From Novosphingobium sp. 9 (GTDB lineage Bacteria; Pseudomonadota; Alphaproteobacteria; Sphingomonadales; Sphingomonadaceae): DNA of 64,000 bases. A program made the translations under genes and the position numbers. The DNA is taken from the NCBI RefSeq assembly GCF_025340265.1, contig NZ_CP022707.1, positions 992,501-1,056,500 of the forward strand, given 5' to 3'. Below are positions 19,530-32,289 of this stretch, piece by piece. Under the pieces are notes generated by a model that saw nothing but the letters and a program-made list of their open reading frames with translations, had not been told where the DNA came from and did no database searches. Within the stretch, counting starts at the first letter, position 1. Every line of letters starts with the position of its first letter.

Positions 19530-20071
19530 GCAAAGGCCTCGACCGCGTCGAGCGTGACGCCGAGCAAGTCCTTGCCGGACAGTTGCGGTGTCATGCCGTC
19601 CAGCGGCCATGCGATGTCCACGGCGGGGTCGTTCCAGAGCAGGCAGTGCTCACTTTGCGGCGCGTAGGGCGCGGTGCATTTGTAGAGGAAGTTCGTGTTG
19701 TCTTCCAAGGTCAGAAAGCCGTGCGCGAAACCCTCGGGCACCCAGAACATGCGCTTGTTCGCAGCACTTAGCTCCACGCCCATCCATTGTCCGAACGTGG
19801 GCGACGACTTGCGCAGATCAACGGCAACGTCATAGACGGCACCGGTTGCCACGCGCACCAGTTTACCTTGCGGCGCCGGGTTCTGGAAATGCAGGCCCCG
19901 CAGCACCCCTTTCTGCGAACAGCTATGGTTGTCCTGTACGAACGTGAGGTCGAGCCCGATTTCGCGGAACTTCGCCTCGCTCCAGGTTTCCATGAAGAAG
20001 CCTCGGTCGTCGCCGAACACTCTGGGTTCAAGGATCAGAGTGCCGGGCAGCTTGCCCTCGATCACGTTCAT
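19526..20071 (-). CDS. rmlC: dTDP-4-dehydrorhamnose 3,5-epimerase
   Basis: 181 residues, cupin fold. The catalytic base His is in RGLHFQNP, and the family run [24 protein letters not shown] with its active-site Tyr is intact. It epimerises C3 and C5 of the 4-keto sugar, step 3 of the pathway. It overlaps both rmlA (20068-20071) and rmlD (19526-19529) by 4 bp, so the set is translationally coupled. Confidence 0.96.
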
Positions 20072-20955
20072 GGACGCTCACCATTCTGCAGCAACTGTAT
20101 CAGGTATTCCCCATAGCCTGACTTGCGGAGCGGCGCGGCGAGCGATTCCAGCGCGGCATCGTCGATGAAGCCCTGTCGCCAGGCGATCTCTTCCGGGCAG
20201 CAGACCTTCAGGCCTTGTCGTTCTTCGGTGACGCGGACGTAGGTTCCGGCGTCGAGCAGCGAATTGTGCGTGCCGGTATCGAGCCAGGCATAGCCGCGCC
20301 CCATTATCTCGACGTTCAGTGCACCGTCTTCCAGATAGCGCATGTTGAGATCGGTGATCTCGTATTCGCCGCGCGGGGAAGGCTGGAGATCCCGCGCGCG
20401 ATCGACTGCCGTCTCATCGTAGAAATACAGTCCGGTGACGGCATAGTTGGAGTTTGGCTTTTCCGGCTTTTCGACCAGTTCGACAGCGCGTCCTTCGCTG
20501 TCGAAGGAGACCACGCCATAGGCCTGCGGGTTGTTGACGCGATAGGCGAATACGCTGGCACCCTGCTGCTGGGCGTCTGCATTCTTCAGCAGGATCGGCA
20601 GGCCGTGGCCGTAGAAGATGTTGTCGCCTAGAACGAGAGCGCTTTTCGAACCGGCAAGAAAGTCCGCGCCGATGTGATAGGCTTGGGCCAGCCCGTCCGG
20701 TGACGGCTGCACGGCATAGCTGATCGACATGCCCCACGCCGTACCGTCGCCAAGCAGGTTGGCGAACGCGGCCTGATCCTGAGGGGTGGTTATGATCAGC
20801 ACTTCCCGGATACCCGCCATCATCAGTGTCGCAAGCGGATAGTAGATCATCGGCTTGTCGTAGACCGGCATCAGTTGCTTGGATGCACCGCGGGTGAGCG
20901 GGTAGAGGCGTGTGCCCGATCCACCTGCCAGGATAATGCCCTTACGATTGGTCAT
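20068..20955 (-). CDS. rmlA: Glucose-1-phosphate thymidylyltransferase
   Basis: 295 residues. Nucleotidyltransferase signature [16 protein letters not shown], then [17 protein letters not shown], and the metal-site DNIFYG. It makes dTDP-glucose from glucose-1-phosphate and dTTP and is the feedback-inhibited entry step to dTDP-L-rhamnose. It is the first gene of the nine-gene minus-strand operon; its promoter lies in the 319-bp divergent region up to 21275. Confidence 0.96.
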
Positions 20956-21274
20956 AGGTTCTCGCTAAAGTATTGGCGGGGCAGAAGAGTGTGATGGCTA
21001 CAGCATTGCAGCGCACAAATCCGGGTGTTTCATCAGGGTCACTTTCGGCCAGAATACGGTTGAAGATCATGTCTCATCCGAGTCTTTGGTATTGGTGACC
21101 CGCGTCAGTAAAATACGTATTTACGCGAAGTGTCTACGGGCGGGCGGTGGATTAGGCAACATCCTTTTAGATAGGACCTTTCGCGATTCACCGCCCACTG
21201 ATGCGTTGCCCCTGCGTCATGTTGCACTGCGGCGTTTTGTGTATCTTGCTGATTTTGGAGTGTGAGTTTAAGGG
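20956..21274. other. Divergent intergenic region between rmlA and the export operon
   Basis: No gene seen. It is AT-richer than its surroundings and must hold the promoters of both polysaccharide operons. A perfect 12-bp palindrome AAATACGTATTT lies at 21111-21122. The last 40 bp (from 21235) are the start of the 3-kb duplication, so the palindrome and most of this region are not copied upstream of the second export gene pair, which must use a different promoter. Confidence 0.6.
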
Positions 21275-22024
21275 TTGTTTCGTATTCGTATTTGTAGACG
21301 GGGACATGGCTTGAGGGTCTGGGATATTTGGGCTCGGAGTGTTCCGTGCGCTTTGGTTTGTCTGGCGCTTTCGGGGTGCGGGAGCACGCCGGCGCCGCCG
21401 GTTGTGGGCCGTATATCGCCGCCTGCTGTGACGTCCCAGGGGCAGGAGGCGTTCGTGTCTCCGGGTGCGGGGAACGGTGTTCTTCGTGCAGGGGACGTGA
21501 TTTCGGTTCAGGTTTTCCGGGAGGCTGACCTGTCTCTGGATGCGACGCCGATTGCCGAGGACGGGACGATTGCGCTGCCGCTGATCGGAACGATCAAGGC
21601 GGCGGGCCTGACGCCGGCGCAGCTTTCGCAGCAGGTGACGCAGCGTCTGTCGAAGACATATCTGGTCTCGCCACAGGTGACGGTCAACCTTCAGCAGTAT
21701 GCCTCGCACCTGGTGTCGGTCGAGGGCGCTGTGGAGAAGCCCGGGGTCTATCCGTTTGCGGGCGAGGCCCGTCTGTCGAGCGCGGTGGCGCTGGCGGGCG
21801 GCACCAGCGATGTCGCCAAGATGAAGCAGGTGGTGATCTTCCGCCACGATGCGCAGGGGCAGAGCGTTGCGGTGTTCGACTATTCGGCAGTTCAGGCCGG
21901 GACGATGATCGACCCGGTGCTGATGCCGGGTGACCGGGTCGTGGTGGGGCTTTCGGGCATGACCCAGGCCTGGCAGGATCTGGTCAAGTCGCTTCCGGCT
22001 CTTGCCATTTTCACGCGTTTGTAA
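21275..22024 (+). CDS. Outer-membrane polysaccharide export lipoprotein (Wza/OPX family), copy 1
   Basis: Up to 249 residues. A lipobox LSGC (Cys35) follows a hydrophobic stretch, marking a lipoprotein signal. The mature part has the polysaccharide-export domain (VLRAGDVISVQVFREADLSLDATPIAEDGTI region, about 68-150) and a SLBB domain (SVEGAVEKPGVYPF, about 155-225). The start is uncertain: TTG at 21275, or TTG at 21311 closer to the lipobox. It forms the outer-membrane end of a capsule or exopolysaccharide exporter. It is 14 bp upstream of its kinase/co-polymerase partner. The copy at 27951 encodes the same protein. Confidence 0.9.
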   Translation: MFRIRICRRGHGLRVWDIWARSVPCALVCLALSGCGSTPAPPVVGRISPPAVTSQGQEAFVSPGAGNGVLRAGDVISVQVFREADLSLDATPIAEDGTIALPLIGTIKAAGLTPAQLSQQVTQRLSKTYLVSPQVTVNLQQYASHLVSVEGAVEKPGVYPFAGEARLSSAVALAGGTSDVAKMKQVVIFRHDAQGQSVAVFDYSAVQAGTMIDPVLMPGDRVVVGLSGMTQAWQDLVKSLPALAIFTRL

Positions 22025-22038
22025 GGGTCTGGATCTCC

Positions 22039-24264
22039 ATGGATAATCATGAACTGGCGCCTGTGGCGTCATCCTGGGCGGATCGTTACATAGCCGACGA
22101 ACGGGGCGCGGGAGACTATCCTGCGGCGGCGCAGGGCGCAGGGATGATCAGCATGGCGCAGGTGCGCGGGGCGCTGTGGCGCCAGCGCTATGTCGTCGGC
22201 GGGATCGTGCTGGTGTGCCTGGTGCTGGGTCTGGTGGCGACGCTGCTGATGCGGCCGGTCTACCAGGCGACGGCGACGGTGCGGGTCGACCAGCAGATGG
22301 GGCAGATCGTGGAAGGTCAGGACCTGGCCAACCCGATGATCGCCTCGAACGAGTTGCCGCGCTATCTCAAGACGCTTTCGGCGGTGATCGGCAGCCATTC
22401 GATGGCGCTGCGGGTCGCCGATAAGCTGGGTCTGGATCGCGATCCGGCATTTGTTGGCGACGACAAGGGCGATGGCAAGCTGCAGACCCGGCAGGCCCGT
22501 CTGGATCGGGCGGCGCGCAAGATCGCGGCGAACGTGTCGGTCGATGCGCCGGGCGATACGCGGATCATGGCGATCTCGTACAAGTCGCCCGGTCGCGAGG
22601 AGGCGGCGCGTCTGGCGAATGCCTACGCCAGCCTGTTCGTGGCCGATGACGCGCAGCGTTCGATGGATACCAACAGCTACGCGCGCCAGGTCCTGCAGCA
22701 GCAGATCGATGCGACGCGCGACCAGCTGGCCAAGTCGGAAATGCAGGCGGTGAACTATGCGCGTGCGAACCAGCTGATCATGCCGATGGGCAGCGGAAGC
22801 GGCGGCGGCGATGGCGGTTCGAGCGACGGCCAGAGCGGCGGCGGCGGCGGTGGCGCCCAGACCCTGACCGGGGCGACGCTGATGTCGATGAACAGTGCCC
22901 GTTCGGGACTGGTATCGGCGCGGATCCAGGCCGAACAGCACTGGAACGTGGTGTCCGGCATGCCGGCGCTGAGCATTCCCGAGGTGCAGCAGAACTCGGC
23001 GATCCAGACGCTGCAGGGGCAGCGTGCGGATCTGGCCGGGCAGCTGGCGCAGCTGAAGCAGCGTTACAAGGCGGGCTATCCGCAGGTTGACGAGCTGACG
23101 ATGCAGATCCACTCGCTCGACCAGCAGATCGCGCAGACGGCCAGCCAGATCAAGGCGTCGATCAAGGCGCAGTACGAGGTGGCCAAGCAGCAGGAAGGGG
23201 CGATGGATACCGAGATCACGAAGGTCTCGAGCCAGACGCTTGCCGAGCAGGATCGCCAGGTCGAATACAGCCTGCTGAACCGCAACACCGATGCGTTGCG
23301 CCAGCAGATGACCTCGCTGATGCAGCGCTACAACGAGATCGCTTCGGCCTCGGATATCCATGCGAACAATCTGACGCTGCTGGATACGGCCGAAGCCCCG
23401 GCCTCGGCGGTCTCGCCCAACATCTACAAGAACATGATGCTGGCGCTGGGCGCGGGTATCGTGCTGGCCTTCGGCGCTGCGCTGCTGCGCGAGATGCTCG
23501 ACGACAGCCTGCACTCGCCCGAGGACGTGGAAGCCAAGCTGGGCGTGCACCTGCTGGGGATCACGCCGCATGTCGAGGTGGACAAGCTGGAGGAGGCGAT
23601 GGGTCGCGCAGGGGCGCTGTCGGAGGCTTATGCCTCGCTGCGCACGGCGATCGAATATGCCGCTCCGGCGATCCCGCACCGCGTGATCCAGTTCACCTCG
23701 AGCCAGGCCTCGGAGGGCAAGACGACGACCTCGACGTCGCTGGCAGGTCAGTACGCGGCGCTGGGTCGCCGGGTGCTGGTGATCGACGCAGACTTGCGCA
23801 AGCCCACGATCGGGCGGGCACTGATCGGTCGCAAGGCCGAGCATGGTCTGGTCGACGTGCTGCTGGGGCATCGCACGTTCGAGGACGTGGTGGTGTCGGT
23901 GTCCGGCAGCATGGACGTGATCCCGTGCGGACATATCCCGCCCAACCCGGTGGAAATCCTCTCGTCGGCGGCCTTTGCGCAGTTCATCGAGAGCCATCGC
24001 AAGGCCTACGATCTGGTGCTGATCGATTCGCCGCCGGTGATCGGTCTGGCCGACGCGGTGCTGATCGGCCGCGTCGCCGATCACATCGTCTTCGTGGTCG
24101 AGGCCAACCGCTCGCACTTCGGCCAGGCCAAGGCCGCGATGCGCCGCCTCGGACAGGTCCACGCCAAGGTCATCGGCGCCGTCCTCACCAAGTACCGCGC
24201 TCAGGAAGCCGGACACTCATACGAATACGCATACAACTACTATTCATACGGAAAAGAAAACTGA
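22039..24264 (+). CDS. Polysaccharide co-polymerase/bacterial tyrosine kinase (Wzc family), copy 1
   Basis: 741 residues. The Wzz-type chain-length domain is bounded by two membrane helices (about 51-71, YVVGGIVLVCLVLGLVATLLM; about 468-487). A periplasmic coiled coil is interrupted by a Gly/Ser linker (about 250-275). The cytoplasmic BY-kinase domain has Walker A ASEGKTTTS (Lys561), Walker A' VIDADLRKP (Asp583, Asp585) and Walker B LVLIDSPP (Asp663). The tail carries six tyrosines (728, 730, 732, 734, 735, 737), the usual autophosphorylation cluster. It controls polymer length and export with the OPX lipoprotein. No separate Wzb phosphatase is in the window. Confidence 0.93.
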   Translation: MDNHELAPVASSWADRYIADERGAGDYPAAAQGAGMISMAQVRGALWRQRYVVGGIVLVCLVLGLVATLLMRPVYQATATVRVDQQMGQIVEGQDLANPMIASNELPRYLKTLSAVIGSHSMALRVADKLGLDRDPAFVGDDKGDGKLQTRQARLDRAARKIAANVSVDAPGDTRIMAISYKSPGREEAARLANAYASLFVADDAQRSMDTNSYARQVLQQQIDATRDQLAKSEMQAVNYARANQLIMPMGSGSGGGDGGSSDGQSGGGGGGAQTLTGATLMSMNSARSGLVSARIQAEQHWNVVSGMPALSIPEVQQNSAIQTLQGQRADLAGQLAQLKQRYKAGYPQVDELTMQIHSLDQQIAQTASQIKASIKAQYEVAKQQEGAMDTEITKVSSQTLAEQDRQVEYSLLNRNTDALRQQMTSLMQRYNEIASASDIHANNLTLLDTAEAPASAVSPNIYKNMMLALGAGIVLAFGAALLREMLDDSLHSPEDVEAKLGVHLLGITPHVEVDKLEEAMGRAGALSEAYASLRTAIEYAAPAIPHRVIQFTSSQASEGKTTTSTSLAGQYAALGRRVLVIDADLRKPTIGRALIGRKAEHGLVDVLLGHRTFEDVVVSVSGSMDVIPCGHIPPNPVEILSSAAFAQFIESHRKAYDLVLIDSPPVIGLADAVLIGRVADHIVFVVEANRSHFGQAKAAMRRLGQVHAKVIGAVLTKYRAQEAGHSYEYAYNYYSYGKEN

Positions 24265-24297
24265 CACATATATAAAAAGGGGGATGATCCCTTCAAG

Positions 24298-24328
24298 ATA
24301 GCGCTCCCGAACCGGTCGGGGGCGCTAT
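24298..24328 (+). terminator. Hairpin between the kinase gene and the ligase gene
   Basis: Stem ATAGCGCTCCCGA/TCGGGGGCGCTAT (one T-G pair), ACCGG loop, 33 bp after the kinase stop. There is no T-run, so it probably attenuates or protects the mRNA instead of ending it; the downstream genes lack another clear promoter. It is not present behind copy 2. Confidence 0.5.
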
Positions 24329-24382
24329 TGCGTTGTGAAAGATGTGCAGGCCACGCAACAGGCCAATAAGGAGCGGTCAGCC

Positions 24383-25771
24383 GTGAGAGCCCAGTCCCCC
24401 TATGCTGCCCGCGGACACACGCCGCTATGGAAGCAGCGTGTCGTGCATTTGCAGTTTCTCTTGGTGGCCGCCTTGCTGTTCGGCGGAGGTGGGGTGGGAT
24501 ATGGCCTTGCCAATGCATGCGTCCAGATCCTCGCATTGGTGCTGCTGGCGCTCAACGGCCATGTCGTTGCGCGCTTTTTCCGTCATGCGCCGTGGCCGGT
24601 GCTTGGCCTGCTTGTTCTGACGATGTTGTGGCCCTTGTTGCAGCTTGTGCCGCTGCCCTATGCGATGTGGAGCCGATTGCCCGGCCGGGATATCGTCGAG
24701 CAATCGCTGTCTCTTGTGACCGACCCGCAAGGCGCCTGGTTCCCTGTCTCCATGGACTCCATGCGCACGCTTACGGCTTTTGTCGGGACCATCGTGCCGG
24801 CAACGGTTCTGGTGCTGGGCTGGGGTATTTCGGGGCGGGATCGCCACCGGCTGCTATGGACGCTGGCTATCCTTGCGCTTGGCAGTGTCTTGCTGGGCGT
24901 ATTCCAGCTCAGCGGGGCGGTGCCGCTGATCTATGCGACCAATGACCTTGGTATGACCAAGGTCGTCCACGGGACGTTTGCCAATCGCAATTCGGCCGGG
25001 GTGTTTCTCGATGTCGCGCTGGCGATACTTTGCATATTGCCTCTGCGTTCGGTGACCCTTGCCAATCTGGCTTTGCGGGTGGGGCTTTTCGCGCTGCTTG
25101 GTCTGGGTGTGATCGGCACGATGTCGCGGTCGGGAACGGCCCTGCTCTTGCTGCCGGTTCTTTTCTGCCTTGTTCGGCTGTGGGCAACCAGAAAGGAGTG
25201 GATCGGAAAGGACCGCCAAGGCGTAAGGCAGGGGATATCGCGGGGTTGGCTGTTGGTGTTTGCTGTCGGCGGTCTGCTGGTTATTGGCGCGGTGGCCGGG
25301 GCCGGCGGTGGCAGGCTTGCCTCCACCTTCGAGCGTTACCAGAACTTGAAGGACCAGCGCCCGGAAATCTGGGCGGATGCGATCGATTCGGCCAAGCGCT
25401 ATTGGCCTGTTGGCGCCGGCACGGGAACTTTCGACGAGGTTTTCCAGGCTGACGAATCGCTTGAATATGTGACTGAGCGTCGTGCCGGGCGGGCGCACAA
25501 CGATTATATCGAGATGGCTGTGGAATCCGGTCCTTTTGCGGAACTGATCGCACTGGCCTGGGTGTTGGCGGTTCTTGCGTCGGTCTGGTGCGTTCGCAAG
25601 CGGGAAGATCGCTGGACGCTATGGGCCTCTGCGGTAGGGCTGGGATGCTTCATCCTGCAATCGGGCATCGACTATCCGCTTCGCAATCAGGCCAATCTTT
25701 GCGTGGCTGGCCTGTTGTTCGCTCTCTGCGCGACGGCTTTTCGACCGCGTAATATGGAGTCAGCAGCATGA
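24383..25771 (+). CDS. O-antigen ligase/polymerase-like membrane protein (Wzy/WaaL superfamily)
   Basis: About 462 residues from GTG 24383, chosen because AAGGAG at 24368-24373 is 9 bp upstream; an earlier GTG at 24335 lacks such a site. About ten to twelve membrane helices with the large periplasmic loop (VVHGTFANRNSAGVF early, then RAGRAHNDYIEMAVESGPF) that marks the O-antigen ligase family. Such proteins polymerise or transfer undecaprenyl-linked glycans at the periplasmic face. Between a Wzc-like kinase and other export genes, polymerase (Wzy) is more likely than LPS ligase, but the two cannot be separated by sequence. Its stop overlaps the next start (ATGA). Confidence 0.85.
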   Translation: MRAQSPYAARGHTPLWKQRVVHLQFLLVAALLFGGGGVGYGLANACVQILALVLLALNGHVVARFFRHAPWPVLGLLVLTMLWPLLQLVPLPYAMWSRLPGRDIVEQSLSLVTDPQGAWFPVSMDSMRTLTAFVGTIVPATVLVLGWGISGRDRHRLLWTLAILALGSVLLGVFQLSGAVPLIYATNDLGMTKVVHGTFANRNSAGVFLDVALAILCILPLRSVTLANLALRVGLFALLGLGVIGTMSRSGTALLLLPVLFCLVRLWATRKEWIGKDRQGVRQGISRGWLLVFAVGGLLVIGAVAGAGGGRLASTFERYQNLKDQRPEIWADAIDSAKRYWPVGAGTGTFDEVFQADESLEYVTERRAGRAHNDYIEMAVESGPFAELIALAWVLAVLASVWCVRKREDRWTLWASAVGLGCFILQSGIDYPLRNQANLCVAGLLFALCATAFRPRNMESAA

Positions 25772-26901
25772 AGCGGCTGGTATGGATCCTGGCGCTGGCG
25801 TTCGTCGGCATGCTGGTTGTCGGTGTGGAACTGGATCGATCGGCCCGGATGGACTCGTCGCTGGACGATTACGTTCCAGCGCTCTTTCAGTCGTTTGCTT
25901 TGGAAAATGAGGTGGACGGGGCCGGAAGCCAGTCTCTGGACGGCGAGCAATTAGATGACGCGCGTAAATTGCTGCGTCAGCGCCCGGTCCCGGCTGAGCA
26001 TCTCAGGGCTTTGGCATTGGCTGAAATCGCCGCTGGCAACGATGCCGTGGGCCAGCAGGCGATGGCCTTTGCCGCAGGACGGGGCTGGCGTGATCCGGTC
26101 GTTCAGGCGACGATGGTGCGGGCTGGGGCGCAGGCCGGGGCGTGGGATATCGCTGCGCAGCGCCTGGCCGCGCTTTGGGCGGTGGTGAACGATCGGCAGA
26201 CGCTGAACGATCTTACCCATCTGGTCGCACAGACCGAGCAGGGACGAGCGGCGCTTGCTCAGCAACTGGCGGGCAATATACCGGCGCGCGATGGGATGAT
26301 GCGCTGGATCGCAGGCAACCTTACGCCGCAGCAGGCGGCATCTGTTGCGATGGCTGCTCAGGCGCATGGAGCCAGATTTGACTGCGGGCAGATGGCTGAT
26401 GTGGCGCGCAAGGTTGTCGTGTCGGATGGTGATGCCGAGCTTGCACAGGCGCTCTGGAACGGGCGCTGCAGTCGTAATTCGGCGCCGTCGCAGCCCGGTG
26501 ATGTTCGCTTTGTATCATCTGCTCCTACCGGGGATACAGGGCCGTTCGGGTGGCAGCTGACTCAGAACTCGGCAGTATCTGCCGACCTCGAAGGAAGCGG
26601 AGGCGACGTTTCACTTAGCGTTCACAATGGCGGTTCGGTGCCTGCAAAGTTTGCGGAACGCATTGTCACGCTGGCGTCGGGGGCGCATCTGCTAAAGCTG
26701 TCCGCGAATGCGTCGGGCAGCGGTGCACGAGGAGTTTCGGTCGCCATGTTCTGTCTGCCTGACGGCGTTCCGCTTGCCGGGGCGGCGAGCAATGGAGGAA
26801 GCCTCTTTCAGATCCCCGCTGCGGGATGTCGCGCTCAGAAGCTCATTCTCACCGCCTCTCCGGGAGATATCGAGGGCCTGCGTATTTCTTCGGAAGGGTG
26901 A
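25768..26901 (+). CDS. Unknown membrane-anchored envelope protein of the polysaccharide cluster
   Basis: 377 residues; family not recognised. One N-terminal membrane helix (VWILALAFVGMLVVGVEL) is followed by an alpha-helical, TPR-like part (about 65-240, with repeats such as PAEHLRALALAEIAAGN) and a beta-rich C-terminal third (about 255-375) with Gly/Ser strands like a jelly-roll and two cysteines (CLP, GCRA) that could form a disulfide in the periplasm. Coupled by ATGA overlap to the ligase/polymerase gene, it probably assists polymer assembly or binds the product (inference). A strong terminator follows. Confidence 0.7.
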   Translation: MKRLVWILALAFVGMLVVGVELDRSARMDSSLDDYVPALFQSFALENEVDGAGSQSLDGEQLDDARKLLRQRPVPAEHLRALALAEIAAGNDAVGQQAMAFAAGRGWRDPVVQATMVRAGAQAGAWDIAAQRLAALWAVVNDRQTLNDLTHLVAQTEQGRAALAQQLAGNIPARDGMMRWIAGNLTPQQAASVAMAAQAHGARFDCGQMADVARKVVVSDGDAELAQALWNGRCSRNSAPSQPGDVRFVSSAPTGDTGPFGWQLTQNSAVSADLEGSGGDVSLSVHNGGSVPAKFAERIVTLASGAHLLKLSANASGSGARGVSVAMFCLPDGVPLAGAASNGGSLFQIPAAGCRAQKLILTASPGDIEGLRISSEG

Positions 26902-26905
26902 AGGC

Positions 26906-26968
26906 AAGGCCTGCAACCGGTCATCGCCTTGCGTTGGAAGGCGATGACCGGTTGCAGGCCTTTATTTT
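26906..26968 (+). terminator. Very strong 25-bp-stem terminator
   Basis: Arms 26906-26930 and 26938-26962 are perfect reverse complements (25 bp) with a 7-nt loop, followed by TATTTT. It ends the first export operon 4 bp after the last stop codon. Being symmetrical and lying between convergent genes, it may stop transcription from both sides. Confidence 0.85.
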
Positions 26969-26978
26969 GGCTGGCCCT

Positions 26979-27545
26979 CTATCTTGAATGCCGGGTCTTG
27001 CGCACTGGTGCGCTGAGAATCTGACGATATTTCCATGCTGTGCCGGCAATCGTCAGGCATGCGGCAAGGTCGATGAGGTAGTTCGGTCGCAGGATGCCGC
27101 CGTGATAAAGCAGGGCATCGACCCCATGCAGCGATATCATCCGAAGGGTAACCAGCAGTATCTCTGCCACTGCTGCAATCCGCGAGGCCAGTATCATAAG
27201 GGCGGCCGGATGCATGGCTGCACGGCGCTTCGAGGTCTTGTACAGGATCCAGCAGGAGGCTCCAGTTGTCACTGCGATGATAAGCAGGACAAGCGGGGTC
27301 TGCAGGTCACGCCTTTCTGAATAGACCTGATCTGCCCTGGCGATGCCGCGCATCGTATCGGAAAAATTCTGTTCGACGTTGAACAGCCGCATGCAGATCA
27401 TCACGACGAACAGCCCAATCATCAGCCACCAGTTGATCTTGTCTTTTGTCGGAAGACTCCTGCCGATGCCGAAAAGGGCCGTGCGTAGCGTGACGGCCGC
27501 ACACAGCGCATAAAGGATGATGGCGAACAGGGCTGCTGGAGACAT
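26979..27545 (-). CDS. Unknown integral membrane protein
   Basis: 188 residues; family not recognised. Four predicted membrane helices (about 5-25, 39-55, 84-104 and 115-135) plus a weaker one near 155-170, and a basic C-terminus (RKTRHSR). It is convergent with the preceding operon and lies between the two copies of the export/kinase pair, so it belongs to the unique 3.6-kb stretch flanked by the duplication. No catalytic motif is seen. Confidence 0.65.
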   Translation of the reverse strand: MSPAALFAIILYALCAAVTLRTALFGIGRSLPTKDKINWWLMIGLFVVMICMRLFNVEQNFSDTMRGIARADQVYSERRDLQTPLVLLIIAVTTGASCWILYKTSKRRAAMHPAALMILASRIAAVAEILLVTLRMISLHGVDALLYHGGILRPNYLIDLAACLTIAGTAWKYRQILSAPVRKTRHSR

Positions 27546-27910
27546 CTGGCTGTTTTATCCGGTTGGCGTTGCGTCGCGGGAAGGCGGCTCTGCATTTTAC
27601 GCAGACAAGAGCGTTGTTAGCATAAATTGGCAGTCGTGGAATGGATGCCAGGATTGCAATTGGGGCAAACCTGTTTCGCGTGGAGCGCTGTTTTTCGCCA
27701 TATTTTCTGAAATGCGAAGGGGCTTTGGGCTGATATTTTCTGCCAGATAAGTCAATCTCCGAAAATTTCTATAAATCCCTGCTTATATTCTAAATTACGT
27801 CAATTTTTTTGATATGAATGTCCTAATTATCCAGTGAAAATGGGATGTTGAGTGCGGTATTTGGATTCTGGTGCAATTTTTCCTCGATGCGCAGAAAGGT
27901 GATATTCGAA
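27546..27910. other. AT-rich gap before the second export/kinase copy
   Basis: No convincing gene. The last about 130 bp (27750-27880) are clearly AT-rich for this genome, with several TATAAT-like stretches, and should hold the promoter of the second gene pair, which differs from that of copy 1. A 77-codon open frame at 27517-27750 looks non-coding. Confidence 0.55.
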
Positions 27911-27950
27911 TTTTGTGTATCTTGCTGATTTTGGAGTGTGAGTTTAAGGG

Positions 27951-28700
27951 TTGTTTCGTATTCGTATTTGTAGACGGGGACATGGCTTGAGGGTCTGGGA
28001 TATTTGGGCTCGGAGTGTTCCGTGCGCTTTGGTTTGTCTGGCGCTTTCGGGGTGCGGGAGCACGCCGGCGCCGCCGGTTGTGGGCCGTATATCGCCGCCT
28101 GCTGTGACGTCCCAGGGGCAGGAGGCGTTCGTGTCTCCGGGTGCGGGGAACGGTGTTCTTCGTGCAGGGGACGTGATTTCGGTTCAGGTTTTCCGGGAGG
28201 CTGACCTGTCTCTGGATGCGACGCCGATTGCCGAGGACGGGACGATTGCGCTGCCGCTGATCGGAACGATCAAGGCGGCGGGCCTGACGCCGGCGCAGCT
28301 TTCGCAGCAGGTGACGCAGCGTCTGTCGAAGACATATCTGGTCTCGCCACAGGTGACGGTCAACCTTCAGCAGTATGCCTCGCACCTGGTGTCGGTCGAG
28401 GGCGCTGTGGAGAAGCCCGGGGTCTATCCGTTTGCGGGCGAGGCCCGTCTGTCGAGCGCGGTGGCGCTGGCGGGCGGCACCAGCGATGTCGCCAAGATGA
28501 AGCAGGTGGTGATCTTCCGCCACGATGCGCAGGGGCAGAGCGTTGCGGTGTTCGACTATTCGGCAGTTCAGGCCGGGACGATGATCGACCCGGTGCTGAT
28601 GCCGGGTGACCGGGTCGTGGTGGGGCTTTCGGGCATGACCCAGGCCTGGCAGGATCTGGTCAAGTCGCTTCCGGCTCTTGCCATTTTCACGCGTTTGTAA
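27951..28700 (+). CDS. Outer-membrane polysaccharide export lipoprotein (Wza/OPX family), copy 2
   Basis: Same 249-residue protein as the gene at 21275, with no base difference seen. Lipobox LSGC at Cys35, polysaccharide-export domain and SLBB domain as there. Only the promoter differs. Two identical OPX genes would raise dosage or serve two sets of partners. The start codon question (TTG 27951 or 27987) is the same. Confidence 0.9.
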   Translation: MFRIRICRRGHGLRVWDIWARSVPCALVCLALSGCGSTPAPPVVGRISPPAVTSQGQEAFVSPGAGNGVLRAGDVISVQVFREADLSLDATPIAEDGTIALPLIGTIKAAGLTPAQLSQQVTQRLSKTYLVSPQVTVNLQQYASHLVSVEGAVEKPGVYPFAGEARLSSAVALAGGTSDVAKMKQVVIFRHDAQGQSVAVFDYSAVQAGTMIDPVLMPGDRVVVGLSGMTQAWQDLVKSLPALAIFTRL

Positions 28701-28714
28701 GGGTCTGGATCTCC

Positions 28715-30940
28715 ATGGATAATCATGAACTGGCGCCTGTGGCGTCATCCTGGGCGGATCGTTACATAGCCGACGAACGGGGCGCGGGAGACTATCCTGC
28801 GGCGGCGCAGGGCGCAGGGATGATCAGCATGGCGCAGGTGCGCGGGGCGCTGTGGCGCCAGCGCTATGTCGTCGGCGGGATCGTGCTGGTGTGCCTGGTG
28901 CTGGGTCTGGTGGCGACGCTGCTGATGCGGCCGGTCTACCAGGCGACGGCGACGGTGCGGGTCGACCAGCAGATGGGGCAGATCGTGGAAGGTCAGGACC
29001 TGGCCAACCCGATGATCGCCTCGAACGAGTTGCCGCGCTATCTCAAGACGCTTTCGGCGGTGATCGGCAGCCATTCGATGGCGCTGCGGGTCGCCGATAA
29101 GCTGGGTCTGGATCGCGATCCGGCATTTGTTGGCGACGACAAGGGCGATGGCAAGCTGCAGACCCGGCAGGCCCGTCTGGATCGGGCGGCGCGCAAGATC
29201 GCGGCGAACGTGTCGGTCGATGCGCCGGGCGATACGCGGATCATGGCGATCTCGTACAAGTCGCCCGGTCGCGAGGAGGCGGCGCGTCTGGCGAATGCCT
29301 ACGCCAGCCTGTTCGTGGCCGATGACGCGCAGCGTTCGATGGATACCAACAGCTACGCGCGCCAGGTCCTGCAGCAGCAGATCGATGCGACGCGCGACCA
29401 GCTGGCCAAGTCGGAAATGCAGGCGGTGAACTATGCGCGTGCGAACCAGCTGATCATGCCGATGGGCAGCGGAAGCGGCGGCGGCGATGGCGGTTCGAGC
29501 GACGGCCAGAGCGGCGGCGGCGGCGGTGGCGCCCAGACCCTGACCGGGGCGACGCTGATGTCGATGAACAGTGCCCGTTCGGGACTGGTATCGGCGCGGA
29601 TCCAGGCCGAACAGCACTGGAACGTGGTGTCCGGCATGCCGGCGCTGAGCATTCCCGAGGTGCAGCAGAACTCGGCGATCCAGACGCTGCAGGGGCAGCG
29701 TGCGGATCTGGCCGGGCAGCTGGCGCAGCTGAAGCAGCGTTACAAGGCGGGCTATCCGCAGGTTGACGAGCTGACGATGCAGATCCACTCGCTCGACCAG
29801 CAGATCGCGCAGACGGCCAGCCAGATCAAGGCGTCGATCAAGGCGCAGTACGAGGTGGCCAAGCAGCAGGAAGGGGCGATGGATACCGAGATCACGAAGG
29901 TCTCGAGCCAGACGCTTGCCGAGCAGGATCGCCAGGTCGAATACAGCCTGCTGAACCGCAACACCGATGCGTTGCGCCAGCAGATGACCTCGCTGATGCA
30001 GCGCTACAACGAGATCGCTTCGGCCTCGGATATCCATGCGAACAATCTGACGCTGCTGGATACGGCCGAAGCCCCGGCCTCGGCGGTCTCGCCCAACATC
30101 TACAAGAACATGATGCTGGCGCTGGGCGCGGGTATCGTGCTGGCCTTCGGCGCTGCGCTGCTGCGCGAGATGCTCGACGACAGCCTGCACTCGCCCGAGG
30201 ACGTGGAAGCCAAGCTGGGCGTGCACCTGCTGGGGATCACGCCGCATGTCGAGGTGGACAAGCTGGAGGAGGCGATGGGTCGCGCAGGGGCGCTGTCGGA
30301 GGCTTATGCCTCGCTGCGCACGGCGATCGAATATGCCGCCCCGGCGATCCCGCACCGCGTGATCCAGTTCACCTCGAGCCAGGCCTCGGAAGGCAAGACG
30401 ACGACCTCGACTTCGCTGGCAGGTCAGTACGCGGCGCTGGGCCGCCGGGTGCTGGTGATCGACGCAGACTTGCGCAAGCCCACGATCGGGCGGGCGCTGA
30501 TCGGTCGCAAGGCCGAGCATGGTCTGGTCGACGTGCTGCTGGGGCACCGCACGTTCGAGGACGTGGCGGTGTCGGTGTCCGGCAGCATGGACGTGATCCC
30601 GTGCGGGCATATCCCGCCCAACCCGGTGGAAATCCTCTCGTCGGCGGCCTTTGCGCAGTTCATCGAGAGCCATCGCAAGGCCTACGATCTGGTGCTGATC
30701 GATTCGCCGCCGGTGATCGGTCTGGCCGACGCGGTGCTGATCGGCCGCGTCGCCGATCACATCGTCTTCGTGGTCGAGGCCAACCGTTCGCACTTCGGCC
30801 AGGCCAAGGCCGCGATGCGCCGCCTCGGACAGGTCCACGCCAAGGTCATCGGCGCCGTCCTCACCAAGTACCGCGCTCAGGAAGCCGGGCACTCATACGA
30901 ATATGCATACAACTACTATTCATACGGAAAAGAAAACTGA
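28715..30940 (+). CDS. Polysaccharide co-polymerase/bacterial tyrosine kinase (Wzc family), copy 2
   Basis: 741 residues, differing from the copy at 22039 only by Val618Ala, in the kinase domain between Walker A' and Walker B. Membrane helices, Gly/Ser linker, all nucleotide-binding motifs and the C-terminal tyrosine cluster are unchanged, so both copies should be active. It is followed by a terminator and then a (frameshifted) GT4 gene, not by the ligase/polymerase seen behind copy 1. Confidence 0.93.
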   Translation: MDNHELAPVASSWADRYIADERGAGDYPAAAQGAGMISMAQVRGALWRQRYVVGGIVLVCLVLGLVATLLMRPVYQATATVRVDQQMGQIVEGQDLANPMIASNELPRYLKTLSAVIGSHSMALRVADKLGLDRDPAFVGDDKGDGKLQTRQARLDRAARKIAANVSVDAPGDTRIMAISYKSPGREEAARLANAYASLFVADDAQRSMDTNSYARQVLQQQIDATRDQLAKSEMQAVNYARANQLIMPMGSGSGGGDGGSSDGQSGGGGGGAQTLTGATLMSMNSARSGLVSARIQAEQHWNVVSGMPALSIPEVQQNSAIQTLQGQRADLAGQLAQLKQRYKAGYPQVDELTMQIHSLDQQIAQTASQIKASIKAQYEVAKQQEGAMDTEITKVSSQTLAEQDRQVEYSLLNRNTDALRQQMTSLMQRYNEIASASDIHANNLTLLDTAEAPASAVSPNIYKNMMLALGAGIVLAFGAALLREMLDDSLHSPEDVEAKLGVHLLGITPHVEVDKLEEAMGRAGALSEAYASLRTAIEYAAPAIPHRVIQFTSSQASEGKTTTSTSLAGQYAALGRRVLVIDADLRKPTIGRALIGRKAEHGLVDVLLGHRTFEDVAVSVSGSMDVIPCGHIPPNPVEILSSAAFAQFIESHRKAYDLVLIDSPPVIGLADAVLIGRVADHIVFVVEANRSHFGQAKAAMRRLGQVHAKVIGAVLTKYRAQEAGHSYEYAYNYYSYGKEN

Positions 30941-30957
30941 CACATATATAATTAAAA

Positions 30958-31025
30958 AAAGGGGGGTCATGGGTCTCCTCTTTCTTGGCGGTTGTGTCGA
31001 AGCCTAAGAGGCCCCCTTTGTTTTT
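30958..31025 (+). terminator. Terminator-like structure after kinase copy 2
   Basis: The right arm AAGAGGCCCCCTTT (31006-31019) pairs with AAAGGGGG (30958-30965) and, after an 11-nt bulge, CCTCTT (30977-30982); GTTTTT follows. The long, interrupted stem makes it weaker than the other terminators here. Confidence 0.55.
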
Positions 31026-31079: not shown

Positions 31080-32289
31080 ATGTCTGCATCGACACCGACC
31101 GGTGAGCGGCATCTCGATGTCGTGCATGTATCCTGCGACTTTCCGGATCCGATCGTTGCGTTCAAGACGCCGGTCATCCGCACTCTGCTGGAACTGACGC
31201 AAAATGATTTCAGCCATCGCGTCTATTCGCTGAACCGCCAGTCGCCGTCAGCGCTTTCGTTTGGCAAATCGGTGATTGCAGGGCTGGGAAAGCCTGGCCT
31301 GACGATGCGGGCACAACCGTTCGAATGGGGAGAGGCGATCGAATACGAGGCGCCCGGTCGGGGCCTGTTTCTCGCAACGCTCATGCGGCAGGTCGGTGAA
31401 GAACTGGCTGCCGATCTGCGGGCTTCCGGCCGCGTGCCGGATCTTCTGGTGGCGCACAAGCTGTCGATCGAGGGTATCGCGGTTCAGCGCGCGGCCTTTT
31501 TGCTCGACCGGCCATATGCTCTGTCGATCCAGGGGGATACCGACACCAAGGTGTTGGCCGCGCGTCCGGACCTGAAGCGCGCCTTTGCCGGGATATTCCA
31601 TGGCGCGGCCATGGTCTTTCCGTTTGCGCCCTGGTCGCTGCGGCAGGTCGAAGGCAGGTTGGGGGCGCGAAGCGGGCCTTGTATTGCCCTGCCATGCCCG
31701 ACCGATCTTGACGAGCCGCTGCCCCCCTTGCGGGGGCGAGGGGCTGATCACCGCGTTCCATCTCAAGAATCACGCGCGCAAGAATCTGAAAGGTATGGTC
31801 GCGGCGCTTCGTTTGCTCGACGGAGAAGGCTTTCATGCCCGGCTTGGCGTGATCGGTGGCGGTAACGAGGAGCAGGTCGGCGCCTGCCGGGATATCGTGG
31901 TCGCGCATGCCGGAACGCATCTGGAAGGCGCGCTTGACCGCTCGGCCCTGCGCCAGCGCATGCGGCAGGCGCGCGCGTTCGTATGTCCTTCATTGCGCGA
32001 GAGCTTCGGGCTCGTATTCATCGAGGCGCTGTTTGCCGGTCTGCCCATCGTTTACCCGAAAGGGACAGCGGTTGACGGCTATTTTGACGGTCACGACTTC
32101 GCGATTGCCGTCGATGCCCGCGACCCCCGGTCGATCGCGCTAGGTATGCGCCGGGCCATCGAGGAAGAGGCGCAGCTCAAGGCCAGTCTTGCGCGGTGGC
32201 AAGGCAGTGCCGAGGCCAGACGCTTTCAACGTGCCAGCATCGGCGAGGCTTTTGCATCGGGCCTGCGGATGGCCGCAACCGCAGGATAG
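31080..32289 (+). pseudogene. Glycosyltransferase family 4/1, single-base frameshift
   Basis: The N-terminal frame (HLDVVHVSCDFPDPIVAF, to about residue 218) runs out of family sequence at PLPPLRG. The C-terminal GT-B half (GLITAFHLKNHARKNLKG, then the donor-site SFGLVFIEALFAGLPIVYPKG) continues in another frame to 32289. Removing one G from the GGGGG run at 31732-31736 gives PLPPLRGEGLITAF and one protein of about 402 residues, a normal GT4 length. It is 139 bp after the second kinase gene. As written the donor-binding half is lost; homopolymer slippage or a sequencing error are both possible. Confidence 0.85.

Follow-up and report, generated by a model that had tools for sequence, protein, structure and literature searches.

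A duplicated wza-wzc export module in Novosphingobium sp. 9 with a recent 5' part and an older 3' tail

The window analysed here is a 64,000-nucleotide stretch of the Novosphingobium sp. 9 genome (contig NZ_CP022707.1, positions 992,501 to 1,056,500 of the forward strand). It carries two copies of a polysaccharide export module, copy A and copy B, and each copy is predicted from its sequence to encode a Wza-type export lipoprotein and a Wzc-type (PCP-2a) tyrosine autokinase. We found that the 5' 2.4 kb of the two copies go back to a very recent common ancestor, and that their 3' tails split earlier, by a factor of at least about 13 (95% bound), and have been under purifying selection. The best explanation is an ordinary duplicated wza-wzc export/co-polymerase module that was made mosaic by homologous recombination, for which no new mechanism is needed.

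Self-comparison of the window showed one long direct repeat of 3041 bp, gap-free and on the same strand, with the starts of the two copies 6,676 bp apart (Table 1). The copies are 99.6% identical; the first 2429 bp contain no difference, and all 11 mismatches lie at the 3' end, at positions 23664, 23715, 23736, 23766, 23820, 23871, 23891, 23931, 24111, 24213 and 24228 of copy A. Ten of them are third-position synonymous changes, and the remaining one (23891) gives V618A, copy A coding for valine and copy B for alanine; all but one of the 11 are transitions. An earlier note on this DNA had described by eye a 3-kb duplicate, identical over its first 2.4 kb, with 11 substitutions in 23664-24228, ten of them synonymous, and the self-comparison proved this description exact. 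A search of the whole genome (4,386,972 bases, 2 contigs) placed the repeat at these two sites and at no third. If differences were spread evenly, all 11 would fall inside the last 612 bp with P 2e-8, and a difference-free gap of such length anywhere in the repeat would have P 3e-7. In a single-breakpoint scan the observed likelihood ratio was reached in 0 of 20,000 permutations, so chance is ruled out as the source of the clustering, and a single recent duplication with even differences, already doubted in the earlier note, is untenable.

The left border of the repeat is clean, and the last mismatch lies 47 bp short of the right border. Past the formal 3' end, an A-run and then a G-run of unequal length follow in both copies (24276-24283 vs 30952-30966, by eye), so homology with indels may extend about 8-15 bp further. 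Elsewhere in the right-hand flanks the best gapped local alignment scored 21, below the shuffled 95% point of 23, and the left-hand flanks gave a best match of only 9 bp (without shuffle control). The upstream regions 20956-21234 and 27546-27910 gave no alignment longer than 9 bp; the two modules may therefore answer to different promoters. A promoter scan was uninformative on this point: it gave 4 sigma-70-like sites, where shuffled sequence gave 2.8, and of these one precedes copy A but none precedes copy B. The flanks of the copies differ, and no transposase family was matched among the 20 window open reading frames (ORFs) that were profile-scanned, although no search aimed at insertion sequences was made.

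The synonymous sites, about 602 in the 5' part and 154 in the tail, were used to compare the ages of the two parts. The tail has a synonymous divergence (dS) of 0.068 and a nonsynonymous divergence (dN) of 0.0022, with dN/dS of 0.033, and the upper 95% bound on dS in the 5' part is about 0.005. The probability that 10 of 10 synonymous differences all fall in the tail is 1.2e-7. Random mutation would give at least 10 synonymous changes out of 11 with a probability of 1e-5 to 1.5e-4, depending on transition bias, which means that the tail differences went through selection; with so high a synonymous share, local mutagenesis was rejected as their source, and random error is disfavoured.

The differences could be assigned to one or the other tail in part. 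Alignment by eye puts valine at position 618 of three nearer proteins (P0002-P0004; 70%, 68% and 57% identical), and all 11 relatives carry leucine there, so A618 of copy B is most simply taken as the derived state. By the relatives, the ancestral state is that of copy B at codon 559 (10/11) and that of copy A at codons 691 and 730 (7/11 each), and the other difference sites are weak or uninformative for polarity. The comparison with the relatives' loci that the earlier note had proposed placed copy B at the ancestral site (see below) but polarised the differences only partly, the relatives being saturated at synonymous sites. The changes fell on both tails, as for two sequences evolving apart, and this is compatible with both of the histories that survive the analysis.

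At the tail density of 11 differences in 565 bp, the 95% interval for the breakpoint is about 23510-23663 (residue about 490-542). It takes in all of the linker that joins the kinase domain to the last stretch resembling a membrane helix (by eye), and matches to the kinase family begin at residues 529-548. The earlier note had called it notable that the boundary falls at the start of the kinase domain; the interval does touch the kinase start, but the coincidence is weak because an interval spanning the entire linker is too wide to be notable. The apparent boundary near residue 542, together with these kinase matches, would suit a history in which selection keeps the export parts alike and leaves the kinase parts free to specialise, much as the earlier note had put it (export parts kept, kinase parts drifting). 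We consider such functional divergence very improbable. The kinase parts differ by one residue, at a dN/dS of about 0.03, and protein-level selection cannot equalise some 602 synonymous sites. The kinase end is also on average the better conserved one, with an identity to the 11 relatives of 0.497-0.545 for residues 542-730 and 0.381-0.442 for residues 1-541. The conservation of the kinase end and the synonymous sites were also the grounds for rejecting constraint as the source of the clustering. The copies differ in a stretch that is not weakly conserved, so the sameness of their 5' parts must be of recent date. Some observations speak against leaning hard on this argument: the contrast holds only as an average, with bin 61-120 (0.521) above bin 541-600 (0.502) and bin 601-660 (0.414) below several 5' bins, and the 11 relatives were chosen by DNA matches that lie mostly within the kinase end.

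Gene order in relatives indicated which copy stands at the old site. In 11 fetched same-genus loci, those with the nearest wzc genes by DNA match, the gene of the 26979 type stands beside wza in 9 and a glycosyltransferase follows wzc in 7, as around copy B. Seven loci around the wzy homologue (13.8-16 kb each) were also fetched. A homologue of the N-terminal part of the gene at 25768 follows wzy in all seven, a minus-strand rmlA lies directly upstream of wzy in two (G217 and G140), and a fragment of rmlA stands at the edge of a further locus (G206), some 8 kb from wzy; neither wza nor wzc was found within the fetched 13.8-16 kb in any of the seven. Because the gene order in relatives matches copy B, the ancestral site is best taken to be that of copy B, and copy A to have been inserted ectopically into the rmlA-wzy interval. 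The two relatives with rmlA directly upstream of wzy (G217 and G140) have a small ORF with a signal-like start between rmlA and wzy (L060 7407-7817, about 85 codons from an inner start; L062 7289-7540, 83 codons), and a search of the window did not find it.

We give belief and doubt in equal measure to a history in which conversion homogenised the 5' part of a pair that was older or had already diverged, by whatever route. Slight divergence of the pair would have come first, through an older duplication or through the arrival of copy A in a form that already differed a little. One long tract of RecA-dependent gene conversion, or several that overlap, would then have overwritten one 5' part with the other and halted at about 23510-23663. 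The contiguous identical tract does adjoin an older diverged part within one pair, as a gene-conversion mosaic requires. According to the cited passages of two papers, conversion runs at 8.6e-6 per operon per donor per generation in E. coli rRNA operons (PMC8022953) and at 2e-8 to 1e-5 per cell per generation in repair-proficient Salmonella tuf (PMC5485169). Such rates between bacterial duplicates far exceed mutation rates, which counts for conversion. Several points weigh against it. Under the processivity fitted to tuf, with a mean walk of 500 nt each way (PMC5485169), a single tract over the 5' part has a probability of 0.8%, and of 0.07% if it must also stop at the correct place; the single-tract probability rises to 9% at a processivity of 0.999, a value excluded for tuf in the same source. 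The left edge is homogenised to the last base, though edges convert least in the tuf model. If mutation rates of 1e-9 to 2e-10 are assumed, a dS of 0.068 takes 3e7-2e8 generations to build up within one genome, and the tail would have to stay nearly conversion-free for all that time, which argues for a divergence that came from another genome. With low single-tract probabilities and slow divergence inside the genome, it is quite credible that one tail was imported or that copy A entered as a slightly diverged version.

The other surviving history is a recent duplication of the whole 3041-bp unit, after which the 3' end of one copy was replaced from a close relative; we hold it to be possible but somewhat doubtful. 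Homogenisation of the 5' part and import of a kinase end were the two histories named in the earlier note, and both came through the analysis. Most simply the import would have gone into copy B, with the tract continuing into the native downstream flank, and for import into copy A the tract would have to stop no more than about 47 bp before the right border. Such a history requires neither a long coexistence of near-identical repeats nor a long conversion tract, and it accounts for differences that reach to 47 bp from the right border and for the clean left border; the possible A-run and G-run indels past the border fit a tract that crosses it, and among the 195 genus genomes a near-identical wzc pair shows up in this one alone. 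The donor, however, was not found: the nearest listed proteins are at most 70% identical to the Wzc-type protein (70%, 68% and 57%; 8000 candidates scored), and across 97 other genomes of the relatives set and 194 other genomes of the genus no DNA match of at least 1 kb rose above about 66%. An assembly or polishing artefact seems unlikely to us; it would have erased true differences from the repeat interior, kept those close to the unique right-hand flank, and made the boundary a product of read or insert length. Collapse of the repeat interior could set an apparent boundary about 600 bp from unique flank, and the boundary does lie 612 bp from it; the glycosyltransferase gene beside copy B changes frame at C and G runs, which may be sequencing error, and a mixed sample (contamination estimate 2.73%) could mimic two versions. 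But the left 600 bp, equally near to unique flank, are without differences (P 5e-4 if only the ends were reliable, in which case the boundary would carry no meaning of its own), 10 of the 11 differences are synonymous, and two versions with different flanks point to two loci.

Under the preferred conversion history, copy A would supply Wzy with an adjacent export lipoprotein and autokinase and would be driven with the rmlA-side region, and copy B would retain its own upstream region. The copies would be kept for dosage or co-expression and not for a new kinase activity. The direct repeats also frame wzy, and a recombination event joining the two copies would remove the wzy unit or multiply it; the idea that the locus works in this way as a switch or dosage control dependent on RecA, with crossover positions guided by the diverged tail, is improbable.

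The assignment of the two genes was based on profile matches. The Wza-type protein matched PF02563 (Poly_export) and PF10531 (SLBB) above the cut-offs and has an LSGC lipobox by eye. The Wzc-type protein matched PF02706 (Wzz), PF13807 (GNVR) and PF13614 (AAA_31) above the cut-offs, all in one chain, and TIGR01007 with 145.6 bits (cut-off 108.05). By eye, both Wzc translations contain SSQASEGKTT, VLVIDADLRKP and VLIDSPPV, which we take to be the motifs named Walker A, A' and B, and the C-terminal tyrosine cluster YEYAYNYYSYG. The solved Wzc structures 9exo, 7nhr and 3la6 are distant relatives, matched over query residues 341-740, 341-738 and 527-737 with 140, 138 and 100 bits, respectively.

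A wzc relative at E 1e-100 or better is present in 123 of 195 genus genomes, this one included, and nine of the 123, again with this one, have two or more wzc matches (five candidates scored per genome). Only Novosphingobium sp. 9 among the 195 has two wzc matches with almost equal full-length scores; scores and ranges suggest that the pairs in the other multi-wzc genomes are unlike one another. A kinase scan of genome contigs gave 14 pattern matches, none of them confirmed. Plasmid records reached at most 36% protein identity, and none matched the DNA that separates the two copies; the three best plasmid matches are Novosphingobium-named, with 34-36% protein identity. The distance from wzy to wzc was compared in 39 other genus genomes, the best-scoring wzy matches among 90 other matched genomes down to G131, with 48 lower genomes left out and, within that range, also G057 and G141 (wzc about 2.5 kb away by coordinates) and G152 (no wzc match listed). 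In 25 of the 39, wzy precedes a wzc gene by no more than 450 bp; eight others have at least 18 kb between the two on the same contig, and six have the wzc match on another contig. In the cited passages on Sphingomonas sanxanigenens (PMC5399355), the wzc, wza and wzy homologues ssC, ssD and ssG (tags 02925, 02930, 02935) stand side by side, comparable to the surroundings of copy A, and all three are required for full sanxan production. Since wzy lies close to wzc in the 25 genomes and in S. sanxanigenens, copy A makes a wzy-adjacent neighbourhood of a common kind, and it may have been retained for that reason. The order there is wzc-wza-wzy by locus-tag number, whereas here it is wza-wzc-wzy, and the second sanxan set is described as different and split in two (PMC5399355), whereas here both wza-wzc sets agree at 99.6%.

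Gene conversion is an established process for the concerted evolution of duplicates, as described in the cited part of PMC6053082, and for that reason the finding is a new example of an established process and not a new kind. The tufA/tufB genes and the rRNA operons, as far as the cited passages go (PMC5485169, PMC8022953, PMC6053082), similarly have near-identical copies with identity blocks attributed to non-reciprocal recombination. Unlike those cases, the present one concerns polysaccharide export genes, has one end left diverged, and its conversion is deduced from one genome. A literature search, which covered only the joint occurrence of the three terms wzc, gene conversion and paralogs, found no paper that joins them. 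The pair is a clean natural bacterial duplicate whose two parts are at least about 13-fold apart in age and whose boundary is located to within about 150 bp, and together with a few sister strains it could help to test whether divergence between near-duplicates arises inside the genome against conversion or comes from outside. It also gives a caution that a boundary near a domain start should not be read as functional specialisation.

Table 1 Coordinates of the repeat copies, their genes and the neighbouring genes in the window
Feature	Position	Strand	Basis
Repeat copy A (ectopic site as best read, between rmlA and wzy)	21235..24275	+	Self-comparison, synteny
Repeat copy B (ancestral site as best read, between the 26979-27545 gene and the glycosyltransferase)	27911..30951	+	Self-comparison, synteny
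Copy A gene for a predicted Wza-type polysaccharide export lipoprotein; the listed ORF begins at TTG, but the real start is probably further inside; LSGC resembles a lipobox	21275..22024	+	Poly_export PF02563, SLBB
Predicted Wzc-type chain-length regulator and tyrosine autokinase, copy A (V618)	22039..24264	+	Wzz, GNVR, AAA_31; TIGR01007 above cut-off
Predicted Wza-type lipoprotein, copy B; DNA identical to copy A	27951..28700	+	Self-comparison
Predicted Wzc-type autokinase, copy B (A618)	28715..30940	+	Translation, protein search
Diverged tail of copy A, with all 11 differences (copy B: 30340-30904)	23664..24228	+	Self-comparison
rmlA-like nucleotidyltransferase, left neighbour of copy A; name inferred, RmlD-type neighbour	20068..20955	-	PF00483
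Wzy-type polymerase (Wzy_C/O-antigen ligase domain), right neighbour of copy A	24335..25771	+	PF04932
Unnamed gene after wzy	25768..26901	+	No Pfam match; N-terminal homologue after wzy in 7/7 fetched relatives
Unnamed gene, left neighbour of copy B	26979..27545	-	No Pfam match; homologue divergent from wza in 9/11 fetched relatives
Group-1 glycosyltransferase to the right of copy B, with a change of frame between 31609 and 31736	31080..32289	+	Profile match; one frame in 7 relatives

Three further observations were made in the window. The glycosyltransferase gene to the right of copy B occupies two reading frames, with the switch close to runs of C and G, and forms one frame of 402-482 codons in seven relatives, so it is either a pseudogene or affected by a sequencing error. 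Between the convergent genes ending at 26901 and 26979 lies a 57-bp inverted repeat (26906-26962; a 20-pair stem with a loop of 7 at 26911-26957), which is probably a terminator. A 95-bp direct repeat, 98% identical, occurs at 1773-1867 and 1940-2034.

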